Part shown: piece after piece, positions 4,291-6,840 of the stretch
How positions within the stretch are numbered: position 1 is the stretch's first letter
How the letters are laid out: the number at the start of each line of letters is the position of its first letter
From: Desulfarculus sp.
GTDB taxonomy: Bacteria; Desulfobacterota; Desulfarculia; Desulfarculales; Desulfarculaceae
DNA: 11,325 nt
Direction of reading: 5' to 3'
Assembly (NCBI GenBank): GCA_020216805.1
Contig: JAIWNN010000095.1
Coordinates: forward strand, 1-11,325
The notes under the pieces: generated by a model
The model's database searches: none
The model's input: only the letters and a program-made list of their open reading frames with translations
What the model was told of the DNA's origin: nothing
Translations under genes and position numbers: made by a program

Positions 4291-4974
4291 TTAGGACAGG
4301 GAGCGGGAGACGCCGGCCTCCTCCAGGGTGCGGATGCAGCCTTCCAGCGCGCCCAGGGCCTTGGTGTCCAGCCCCTGGAAGCTGAGGCCGATGGCGGTGA
4401 TGTTGGCGTCTTTCTTGATGTTGCGCACCACCACCGCCAAGATCTCCGGCGGCTCCCCGTTGACGATTCTGGCCTCCACCTCCAAGACGTTGCCGATTTC
4501 CGGGCCGCCGCCCTGGGGCTTGCCGACTCTGCGGGCCGCGAAGCGGCAACCGTTGCGGCTGATGTCCAGGAGAGCGCCGGACAGCCGGTTGTTGGCGGTG
4601 ATCAGGGTGGCGGGGATGTAGCAATCGTAGCGGGGCTCCTTGCGCAGTTCGTTGCGCGAGACCACCCGGGGATAGGAGAGAAAGAGCAGGGGGAAGGGTT
4701 GGTTGATGTGCCCCACCACCGAGGACTGGAACGAGAAGACGGTGCCGGCCCAGAGATAACGGACGATCCCCTGGTTGCCCTCGAAAAACTTGCTTTCCAC
4801 CCCGGAGACCTTGGGGGCGCGGATCACAATGAAGCAGCCCGGCTCCATCCCCACCAGGATGCTCTTGAGCTGGCTCTCCACGCCGTCCAGTTGCAAGAGC
4901 AGGGGGGTGCCCAGCTCCACCTGGAGGCGGTTACCATCGTTTACGTTGGCGATGATCTGTTCAAGGTCGGTCAT
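4291..4974 (-). CDS. PilZ-domain c-di-GMP receptor (YcgR-like flagellar brake type)
   Basis: The 227-residue protein has an N-terminal YcgR-like beta domain (about 15-100) and a C-terminal PilZ domain (about 108-215). Both c-di-GMP-binding signatures are present: RxxxR as RKEPR (111-115) and (D/N)xSxxG as DISRNG (137-142). It should therefore bind c-di-GMP, and relatives slow flagellar motors or affect surface behaviour. No signal peptide or membrane segment is seen, so it is cytosolic. The start is ATG at 4974 because GGGAGG lies eight bases upstream on the minus strand (CCTCCC at 4983-4988); the frame stays open to 5043, but that adds 23 residues unlike the family. It is a single gene, convergent with the exported-protein gene. 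A TCGACA-N17-TATTGT promoter lies upstream. The target is not visible; no flagellar genes are in the window. Confidence 0.9.
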   Translation of the reverse strand: MTDLEQIIANVNDGNRLQVELGTPLLLQLDGVESQLKSILVGMEPGCFIVIRAPKVSGVESKFFEGNQGIVRYLWAGTVFSFQSSVVGHINQPFPLLFLSYPRVVSRNELRKEPRYDCYIPATLITANNRLSGALLDISRNGCRFAARRVGKPQGGGPEIGNVLEVEARIVNGEPPEILAVVVRNIKKDANITAIGLSFQGLDTKALGALEGCIRTLEEAGVSRSLS

Positions 4975-5046
4975 GCGAAGGTCCTCCCAGCTTGTGCATC
5001 GAGGTGGATTACGCTCGGGTGCGGCAGGCAGGACGGCTGACAAGTT

Positions 5047-5154: not shown

Positions 5155-5214
5155 CGGAAGGGCGTCGTACGACGCCCTTCCGGAGGTGTTTTTATAATCC
5201 TTAGGGATTATTTT
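5155..5214. terminator. Perfect 28-bp palindrome plus an AT-rich hairpin between trpB2 and the PilZ gene
   Basis: Bases 5155-5182 are a perfect palindrome (12-bp stem with a GTAC loop). A second hairpin pairs ATAATCC (5194-5200) with GGATTAT (5205-5211). It lies after trpB2 on the minus strand and probably ends that transcript, but the T-runs (5189-5193 and 5211-5214) are on the plus strand, where no gene is recognised upstream. It is therefore either a bidirectional terminator or the end of an unannotated plus-strand small RNA. Confidence 0.6.
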
Positions 5215-5229
5215 CAGTCACAAATCGGC

Positions 5230-6603
5230 TCACATGCGCGAACTCGCCAGTCCGATTTGGGGCAGTTGGGCCAGGGCCTGGTCCACCATGGCCTGGGGAT
5301 AGTCATAGTTGGTCAACTGGCCGGCCAGGTAGGCGTCGTAGGCGCTCATGTCGAAGTGACCGTGGCCGGAGAGGTTGAACAGAATCACCCGCTCTTTGCC
5401 CTCCTCCTTGGCCTTCAGGGCCTCGGCCACCGCCGCCTGGATGGCGTGGGTGGATTCCGGGGCCGGGATGATGCCCTCGGTGCGGGCGAAGAGGAGCCCG
5501 GCCGCGAAGCAGTCCAACTGGTGCACCGCCACCGCCTCGATCAGGCCGTCGGCCGCCACCCGGCTGACCAGGGGGGCCATGCCGTGATAGCGCAGGCCGC
5601 CGGCGTGGATGCCCGGGGGCATGAAGGTGTGGCCCAGGGTGTGCATCTTGATGATGGGGGCCAGGTGGGCGGTGTCGCCGAAATCATAGGCGAAAACGCC
5701 CTTGGTCACGCTGGGGCAGCTGGCCGGCTCCACCGCCAGCACCCGCAGGTCCAGACCGTTGATCTTCTCGCGCAGGAAGGGGAAGGCGATGCCGGCGAAG
5801 TTCGACCCGCCGCCGATGCAGCCGATGACCACGTCCGGCTTGTCGCCGGCGATCTGCATCTGCTTGATGGCCTCCTCGCCGATGATGGTCTGGTGCAGGC
5901 AGACGTGGTTGAGCACCGAGCCCAGGGCGTAGTTGGTGTCGGCGTGGGTGGCGGCGTCCTCCACCGCCTCGCTGATGGCCAGGCCCAGGGAGCCGGGGCT
6001 GTTGGGGTCGGCGGCCAGGGCCGCCCGGCCGGCGTTGGTCTGCTGGCTGGGGCTGGCGAAGATCTCGGCCCCCCAGGTGTTGATCATGGACTTGCGGTAG
6101 GGCTTCTGGTCGTAGCTGACCCGCACCATGTAGACCGAGCATCGCAGGCCGAAATAGTTGGTGGCCAGGCTCATGGCGCTGCCCCACTGGCCGGCCCCGG
6201 TCTCGGTGGCGATGCGCTTGATGCCCGACTTCATGTTGTAGAAGGCCTGGGGCACGGCGGTGTTGGGCTTGTGGGAGCCGGCCGGGGAGACGCTTTCGTT
6301 CTTGAAATAGATCTTGGCCGGGGTGCCCAGGGCCTGCTCCAGGCGGCGGGCGCGCATCAGGGGGGTGGGCCGCCACTGGGCGTAGACCTGCAACACCTCG
6401 TCGGGGATGGCGATGTAGCGTTCCTGGCTGACTTCCTGCTCGATCAGGGCCATGGGGAAGATCGGGGTCAGGTCGGGCGGGGTCAGGGGTTGGCCGGTGC
6501 CCGGGTGCAGGGGCGGGTCCAGGGGCGTCTTGAGGTCGGCCTGGATGTTGTACCATTTTTGCGGCATCTGGTCCTGGCTGAGACTCACCTTGATCGATTC
6601 CAT
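5230..6603 (-). CDS. trpB: Tryptophan synthase beta chain, TrpB2 type
   Basis: TrpB joins indole and serine with pyridoxal phosphate to make tryptophan. The 457-residue length, the long N-terminal extension before the PLP domain and ETGAGQWG (134-141, with Trp where TrpB1 has His) mark the TrpB2 branch. The PLP lysine is Lys112 in GSHKPN. Glu134 matches the catalytic Glu, the phosphate loop is GGGSNFAG (264-271), and SGHGHFD (412-418) lies near the C-terminus. The start at 6603 has AAGGAG eight bases upstream (CTCCTT at 6612-6617); an in-frame start at 6669 would overlap the attenuator hairpin. No trpA is adjacent, which is usual for TrpB2; it is thought to use free indole or partner with a distant TrpA. 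Expression is probably set by the upstream Trp attenuator. Confidence 0.96.
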
Positions 6604-6645
6604 GCTTGGCTCTCCTTGGCCGGCGAAAGGGTTGCGGGACTCGGT

Positions 6646-6687
6646 GAAATCAAAAGGCCGCGGGTCCACCAGGGGGCCCGCGGCCTT
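6646..6687 (-). terminator. Attenuator terminator in the trpB2 leader
   Basis: On the minus strand AAGGCCGCGGG (6677-6687) pairs perfectly with CCCGCGGCCTT (6654-6664) across a 12-base loop, followed by TTTTGATTTC (6646-6655). It sits between the leader peptide stop and trpB2, so it can only act on the trpB2 transcript. Its 3' arm is also claimed by an alternative pairing with 6720-6733. Confidence 0.85.
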
Positions 6688-6733
6688 GCGCGCGTTGAAC
6701 CAATCCGGCTCAGGGCGAGGGCGGACCCGTGGC
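6657..6733 (-). promoter_or_regulatory. Antiterminator pairing for trpB2 attenuation
   Basis: On the minus strand GCCACGGGTCCGCC (6720-6733), inside the leader peptide's coding sequence after its Trp codons, pairs with GGTGGACCCGCGGC (6657-6670). There are 12 Watson-Crick pairs, one G-U and one mismatch. The second segment includes eight bases of the terminator's 3' arm, so the two folds exclude each other. A ribosome stalled at the Trp codons would leave the first segment largely free; one reaching the stop codon would cover it. Confidence 0.65.
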
Positions 6734-6787
6734 GTCGCGCCAAGGGCGCCAATGCAGGTCGATGGCGGCCGGATGGGGGATGGGCAT
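6710..6787 (-). CDS. Tryptophan leader peptide controlling trpB2
   Basis: This 25-codon ORF, ATG at 6787 to TGA at 6710-6712, encodes [10 protein letters not shown], then LHWRPWRD, then a short tail ending GPPSP. It holds two Trp codons (13 and 16), high for so short a peptide. AGGAGA (6793-6798) lies five bases before the ATG and a good promoter lies just upstream. The reading frame is followed by an intrinsic terminator and then trpB2, the standard order of a ribosome-mediated attenuator. The peptide itself probably has no function beyond sensing charged tRNA-Trp. It is too short for routine gene callers. Confidence 0.85.
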
Positions 6788-6807
6788 CGCTGTCTCCTGG
6801 GTTATGG

Positions 6808-6840
6808 ATACTGTATACAGAATACAATTGGCAATGTCAA
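6808..6840 (-). promoter_or_regulatory. Promoter of the trpB2 leader with an overlapping palindromic operator
   Basis: On the minus strand a perfect TTGACA (6835-6840) lies 17 bases from TATACA (6812-6817), giving a start near 6805, some 18 bases before the leader ATG. The perfect palindrome CTGTATACAG (6811-6820) covers the -10 box, so a bound repressor would block the polymerase. It does not match the E. coli TrpR operator (CTAG core); the binding protein is unknown. Confidence 0.7.

Follow-up and report, generated by a model that had tools for sequence, protein, structure and literature searches.

A probable tryptophan leader-peptide attenuator in front of a lone trpB2 gene in Desulfarculaceae

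How does a Desulfarculus cell, a relative of the sulfate reducers, control a trpB2 gene that lies apart from any trp operon partner? We investigated this for the window, that is, the whole stretch of DNA analyzed here (11,325 nt; positions 1 to 11,325 of contig JAIWNN010000095.1, assembly GCA_020216805.1). A preliminary description of this DNA had read the order promoter, peptide of 25 codons (two of them Trp), terminator and trpB2 as a tryptophan attenuator. All of these parts were found in that order and place, and the leader is a real feature of the sequence. The parts that we annotated are as follows.

6812-6840, minus strand: sigma-70-type promoter, with the -35 box TTGACA at 6840-6835, a 17-nt spacer and the -10 box TATACA at 6817-6812
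6806-6825, minus strand: operator-like element GTATTCTGTATACAGTATCC, in which two copies of GTATACnGTATAC (the GTATAC element), each with one mismatch, overlap each other and cover the -10 box
6793-6798, minus strand: Shine-Dalgarno sequence AGGAGA of the leader peptide, taken from the sequence
6710-6787, minus strand: leader peptide ORF of 25 codons, with its stop codon at 6712-6710
6740-6751, minus strand: putative control codons Trp13 (6751-6749) and Trp16 (6742-6740)
6721-6728, minus strand: core of region 2, GGGTCCGC, the putative antiterminator strand within the coding tail, from its duplex with region 3 and the stalled-state fold
6674-6681, minus strand: core of region 3, GCGGGCCC, part of the terminator 5' arm
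6654-6687, minus strand: intrinsic terminator hairpin, -25.8 kcal/mol, whose 3' arm (region 4) is 6664-6654
6646-6655, minus strand: T-rich tail TTTTGATTTC
6611-6617, minus strand: Shine-Dalgarno sequence AAGGAGA of trpB2
5230-6603, minus strand: trpB2, a TrpB-like pyridoxal-phosphate enzyme with its ATG at 6603 (NF009057, TIGR01415)
5155-5182, no strand assigned: inverted repeat of 12 pairs downstream of trpB2, terminator-like on the plus strand only according to a scanner

The hairpin follows the stop codon after 22 nt, and the T tail TTTTGATTTC is imperfect. A simple promoter/terminator scanner missed both the leader promoter and the terminator in the window, probably because it accepted only -10 boxes that end in T and loops no longer than 8. 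The fold energy of the whole leader was unremarkable (z of -1.21).

The trpB2 product matched NF009057 (738.8 bits) and TIGR01415 (637.5 bits), both above cut-off, with a query that carried one additional upstream codon. Its closest named record is on a Desulfarculus sp. contig (L032; 97% identical), and its own genome (1.83 Mb, 55% complete) has one trpB_rel match. The inverted repeat at 5155-5182 separates trpB2 from the following same-strand ORF (4291-5043, matched by no NCBIfam model), and judged from this arrangement trpB2 is likely transcribed alone. The trpB2 frame stays open upstream (6604-6669) as far as a GTG at 6669, within the terminator hairpin; for this reason, automatic gene calls may place the start 22 codons early. 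Elsewhere in the window, a selenium-associated LysR gene lies at 250-1185 and selD at 1874-2917; the latter appears to encode a selenoprotein, with an in-frame TGA (1919-1921) in ARAAGUAAKIG upstream of the TTG start in the ORF list. An Rfam search of the selD region gave no match.

To see how widely the leader occurs, we compared three sets of trpB2 upstream regions: 29 of 30 relative loci (L024, whose contig starts at the gene and has no upstream region, was left out); 77 of 80 named genome contigs, after removal of L032, L033 and L034, which repeat G005, G018 and G012; and 47 loci picked among the matches listed in a phylum sample, one of which has only 118 bases. In that sample, 278 of 395 genomes matched trpB2. 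Matches with no assigned locus, including second copies in G018 and G020, were left out. By eye, a Trp-rich leader stood ahead of trpB2 in 13 of the 29 relatives, the window included. Twelve of these belong to the 18 genomes of the family (G000, which is the window's own genome, G003, G005, G006, G008 and G012-G018), and the thirteenth carrier, G053, is from another family. The leader is missing from G001, G002 and G004, all of the same genus, and from G007, G009 and G010.

We then applied a strict filter that demanded a leader ORF, Trp codons at most three residues apart, an SD-like sequence and a hairpin with a T-rich tail. It passed 19 of 153 regions (11/29 relatives, 1/77 named contigs and 7/47 phylum loci), or 17 of 143 once regions with a 40-mer in common were merged. 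None of 750 dinucleotide shuffles passed, so the leader as a unit is more than chance, which supports a Trp leader-peptide attenuator before trpB2 as originally proposed. Two of the 13 leaders recognized by eye (L011 and L016) were missed by the filter; the start of the L016 leader is uncertain, and its peptide was entered minus the first residues. A short ORF with close Trp codons was present at 14 phylum loci, of which L158, L167, L172 and L176 stood outside the further tests. Apart from their Trp clusters (WRPW, WWVW, WWRW, WWWW and WCWWW), the peptides of the 13 leaders are divergent. No relatives were found in viral_contigs.

Most of the family relatives compared share TTGACA followed by a GTATAC-type -10 box (the exceptions are G006 and G010). 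In the three same-genus genomes that lack the leader, TTGACA lies 135-172 nt from the gene, versus 234-257 nt in the leader-bearing genomes of the genus. The promoter and GTATAC element are intact in all three, and we reasoned that the attenuator is absent from them as a block. The loci of same-genus and same-family relatives that have no trpB2 attenuator and retain the promoter and the element are L004, L005, L007 and L015. Could the leader then be a remnant, its peptide and terminator drifting away while trpB2 is controlled solely at the promoter via the GTATAC element? Three of six same-genus genomes (G001, G002 and G004), together with G007, retain the promoter and element with no leader, as this would predict. 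However, the frame, the Trp codons, the terminator and the complementarity of regions 2 and 3 are intact in the window, and also in L003 and G003, and we regard a remnant as unlikely.

If the leader is a working attenuator, with which arm of the terminator does its coding tail pair? The preliminary description had located the antiterminator strand (6733-6720) within the stretch that codes for the peptide and had it capture the terminator 3' arm (6657-6670), keeping the hairpin open. The location holds: the strand lies in the coding tail and would be masked once a ribosome has reached the stop codon. The complementarity to the 3' arm is also real in the window, with a duplex of -29.0 kcal/mol compared to -22.6 kcal/mol for the 5' arm; the fraction of 500 synonymous recodings that were as good was 0.008 for the 3' arm and 0.124 for the 5' arm. 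The near-twin L003 (a 97% relative) behaves in the same way (-26.5 vs -20.6 kcal/mol). The stronger 3'-arm duplex of the window accounts for the earlier choice; the arms there are near-palindromic (GCGGGCCC), so one strand is able to pair with both.

The relatives did not bear out antitermination via the 3' arm. The 5' arm was the stronger partner of the coding tail in 11 of 14 trpB2 leaders, the exceptions being the window, L003 and L043, a distant leader. The same held for 12 of the 13 leaders before trpE-like genes (see below) whose tail was usable, G012 being the exception (-19.6 vs -20.0 kcal/mol). With other cuts, the trpB2 leader of G016 gave a tie (-26.2 kcal/mol for the 5' arm, -26.6 for the 3' arm). 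The preference was clearest where the arms are not near-palindromic, with 5'/3' values of -19.5/-12.0 kcal/mol in G006, -21.5/-12.2 in G053, -22.5/-16.7 in G013 and -24.4/-19.0 in G003. Compensatory changes, which the preliminary description had suggested looking for in relatives, were found, but for the 5'-arm helix: all 13 aligned leaders have this helix, and double changes fall in eight columns of region 3 and its flank, four of them within the region 3 core (for example, G-C to A-U, U-A or C-G), in pair tables that derive from energy-optimised duplexes and are biased towards pairing.

We also swapped arms between leaders. Among 12 non-redundant trpB2 leaders, coding tails gave -22.07 kcal/mol with their own 5' arms and -20.00 kcal/mol with swapped ones, and 65 of 5000 swaps were as good (172/5000 when L043 was removed). 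The 3' arm gave a signal too (182/5000, or 665/5000 when L043 was removed). For 13 trpE leaders, the corresponding counts were 0/5000 for the 5' arm and 5/5000 for the 3' arm; E_L143 (G016 trpE), which has an extra Trp codon near its end, was excluded from this test, and its stall codon was hand-set in the folds below. Capture of the 3' arm would thus share in the swap-test signal and has the stronger duplex in the window and L003, but its duplex is the weaker one in most trpB2 and trpE leaders, and the 3' arm would be made last, by which time the hairpin could close; we consider this route improbable. From sequence comparison across relatives, the predicted partner of the coding tail is the terminator 5' arm, that is, the classical pairing of regions 2 and 3.

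To follow the two ribosome states, we folded 14 trpB2 leaders (the 13 and L043) and 14 trpE leaders. In the stalled state, the last Trp codon was set in the A site and the free RNA extended to just before the terminator 3' arm. The terminator 5' arm paired with the coding tail in 13 of 14 trpB2 leaders (L043 being the one that did not) and in every trpE leader (14 of 14). When the ribosome was instead placed at the stop codon, a state in which the coding tail is hidden by construction, the terminator formed on the finished RNA in all 14 trpB2 and all 14 trpE leaders. For every trpB2 leader except that of G016 (13 of 14), the full-length minimum free energy structure still favored the terminator in the stalled state; the choice must therefore be kinetic, made during transcription. 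In the no-ribosome state, 11 of 14 trpB2 leaders still had region 3 paired with the coding sequence, and hence no strong 1:2 structure is evident that would enforce termination when translation fails. In control folds, E. coli thrL switched via its coding tail and trpL via the segment behind its stop codon.

We compared the stalled-state pairing with synonymous recodings. Pooled over leaders, with related leaders counted as independent, the paired fraction was 0.735 for trpB2 versus 0.602 (sd 0.053) in recodings (3 of 300 as high), and 0.798 for trpE versus 0.532 (0 of 300 as high). For the window alone, a fraction of 0.173 of 300 recodings was as high, and single trpB2 leaders mostly failed to exceed their recodings because GC-rich tails pair readily. 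Given this weak single-leader significance and the kinship of the leaders, the case rests on the whole family and on the clearer trpE result.

Overall, trpB2 is very probably controlled by a classical ribosome-mediated tryptophan transcription attenuator. The leader has an ORF with a Shine-Dalgarno sequence and clustered Trp codons, and an intrinsic terminator before the structural gene; the alternative antiterminator with compensating changes is weak for single trpB2 leaders and supported when they are pooled. From the computed parts, their conservation, the complementarity of regions 2 and 3 with its double changes, and the two-state folds, we infer translation of the leader, stalling, the ribosome footprint and the control of trpB2 by tryptophan. 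RNA polymerase would start at the promoter (6840-6812), and a ribosome would follow, translating the 25-codon peptide. Under a shortage of charged tRNA-Trp, it would stall at Trp13 or Trp16. Region 2 (6728-6721) would then lie just beyond the footprint, which we take to reach about 12 nt ahead of the first base of the A-site codon, and would be free to pair with region 3 (6681-6674) before the terminator 3' arm is synthesized, so that transcription would continue into trpB2. When tryptophan is ample, the ribosome would reach the stop codon (6712-6710) and mask region 2; region 3 would pair with region 4, the hairpin (6687-6654) would close, and transcription would stop.

A TnaC-like arrest, in which the nascent peptide stalls the ribosome at its own stop codon upon free tryptophan, is very improbable: the window peptide has a Pro before its TGA stop and a Trp 12 residues earlier, as in E. 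coli TnaC, but a terminal Pro is shared by the window and L003 alone (2 of 13 leaders), the other peptides ending in L, R, K, S, G or C. Trp-induced arrest that covers region 2 would act in the same direction, so the sign of the response alone is insufficient to tell such arrest from the classical attenuator. A T-box leader was also rejected, since no Rfam T-box model matched. Neither Trp_leader nor any other Rfam family matched at the gathering score, and at E values up to 10 the search gave four weak unrelated matches.

The classical attenuator on trpB2 belongs to a set, as trpE-like genes carry the same device. TIGR00564 had matches in 18 of 20 genomes, all of them below its cut-off (best 492 vs 517.7 bits), and we therefore call these genes TrpE-like. 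Upstream of them, 14 of 15 regions contain a Trp-rich reading frame and then a terminator; start codons are uncertain in several of these leaders, and several were entered as partial peptides. One G003 match (L152, E of 1e-99) has no leader and was left out afterwards. The window's own genome has such a trpE-like leader on contig C104 (L136; MRNQTTPDQPRTRSGRDLRAWRGGWWRAGARGREGMP). A one-mismatch GTATACnGTATAC site lies slightly more than 300 nt upstream of the same trpE-like gene. The trpE-like leaders resemble those of trpB2 from the same genomes in their Trp-rich peptide and in having region 2 in the coding tail, and their terminators begin 18-29 nt after the stop codon. Unlike the trpB2 leaders, they have CCCACCG-type arms that are not near-palindromic, and their statistics are stronger.

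Outside the class, we folded ten further trpB2 leaders (seven that passed the filter and three that did not). L170 and L183 have the compact layout, with region 2 in the coding tail. L155, L169, L173, L193 and L197 follow the E. coli trp scheme, in which the partner of the terminator 5' arm is the segment past the stop codon; in L169 and L173 this pairing forms whatever the ribosome position. Neither layout was clearly assigned for L178, L189 and L198.

Next, we turned to the GTATAC element at the promoter. GTATACnGTATAC, with at most one mismatch, overlies the trpB2 promoter in 14 of 18 family genomes (it is absent from G006, G009, G010 and G013), and it is kept in G001, G002, G004 and G007, all of which lack the attenuator. 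A one-mismatch search of eight genomes gave 31 forward matches, compared to 10 for a reversed control pattern. Merging overlaps left 28 places: 19 before named genes and nine elsewhere (five of these in G006). The 19 precede trpB2 (7), trpD (4), trpE (2), a BPD_transp_2 (branched-chain-type) permease (5) and a GntR/FCD regulator gene (1). Genes around the sites were called with codon-position GC. Pfam searches covered L122 (trpD-type domains), the permease loci L126 and L128, and L131 (GntR and FCD; gene at 1294-2073 of that locus), and the other genes were assigned by sequence likeness. Loci with the element include L122, L126, L128, L131, L133 and L136.

Which protein might bind there? A TrpR regulon, which requires a TrpR-family repressor, was rejected: PF01371 had no match in any of eight genomes, the incomplete own genome included, and in a control it matched 2 of 14 named genomes, one of them E. 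coli. A regulon survey reports TrpR from gammaproteobacterial groups only, and no GntR regulator of trp genes is named in its aromatic section (PMC5343134). Relatives of the GntR/FCD regulator were present in 15 of 18 genomes; G005, G013 and the incomplete own genome had none. A similar element lies upstream of the GntR/FCD gene at 8 of 20 loci and is lacking at the other 12; in G002 and G003 the gene is about 3.5 kb from the permease element. These patterns are suggestive of GTATACnGTATAC as the mark of a candidate new tryptophan regulon, possibly bound by the GntR/FCD regulator.

We tentatively combine these findings, in a reading that we hold to have a little less than an even chance, into a two-tier tryptophan regulon of Desulfarculaceae. 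A putative layer of GntR/FCD regulator and GTATACnGTATAC would act on trpB2, trpE, trpD, the permease and the regulator's own gene, followed by attenuators on trpE and trpB2; the same reading has the trpB2 attenuator lost as a block within one genus while the element stayed. Such a regulon would parallel E. coli TrpR plus attenuation with unrelated parts and, if true, would mark TrpB2 as a true tryptophan-biosynthetic enzyme in Desulfarculaceae cells. A Geobacter genome paper, in the part cited, assigned a stand-alone trpB2 beside a trp operon to indole scavenging (PMC2700814). If several lineages of the phylum indeed place a Trp-sensing attenuator ahead of trpB2, in both layouts, this would suggest that TrpB2 belongs, for the cell, to the tryptophan supply and is switched on in starvation.

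Lastly, we compared the leader with known systems. The attenuator type is old, and its location on a lone trpB2 seems new: as the preliminary description had supposed, we found no report of one in the papers searched, a scope that excludes older subscription-journal literature. The only trpB2 attenuator found in those papers is a candidate in Corynebacterium diphtheriae, where a Trp leader-peptide attenuator is predicted before trpB2A, a gene that bears the trpB2 name; it is actinobacterial, and the gene there shares an operon with trpA (PMC1262725). The trpB motif of Firmicutes and Fusobacteria, compared here by its description, is also a terminator-type leader that at times precedes trpB, but it is a named riboswitch candidate of other phyla and lies mostly before transporter genes; its authors allow that a classical attenuator remains possible (PMC11109978). 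Amino-acid attenuators have been held, in the account cited, to be gammaproteobacterial in origin with few transfers (PMC3766115), and the leaders described here fall outside that group.

The compact design itself, also thought to be possibly undescribed, is not new: E. coli thrL and the trpE-like leaders of the same genomes have it, and it has been discussed in principle in a paper that also predicts that basal read-through depends on where the stop codon lies (PMC1183508). The natural variants found here (present, lost, compact and E. coli-like) would suit a test of that prediction. E. coli trpL shares two nearby Trp codons and mutually exclusive 2:3 and 3:4 hairpins with our leader, but its region 2 comes after the stop codon, and it controls the trpE operon rather than a lone trpB2. 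The dual control of E. coli trp by a promoter repressor and attenuation (PMC1183508) is mirrored here by the GTATAC element, although a TrpR-family match is absent from 8 of 8 relatives. In E. coli thrL, as proposed for trpB2, region 2 is the end of the peptide coding sequence, pairs with the terminator 5' arm and is covered by a ribosome at the stop codon; thrL differs in its Thr/Ile codons, its multi-gene operon downstream and its unrelated sequence.
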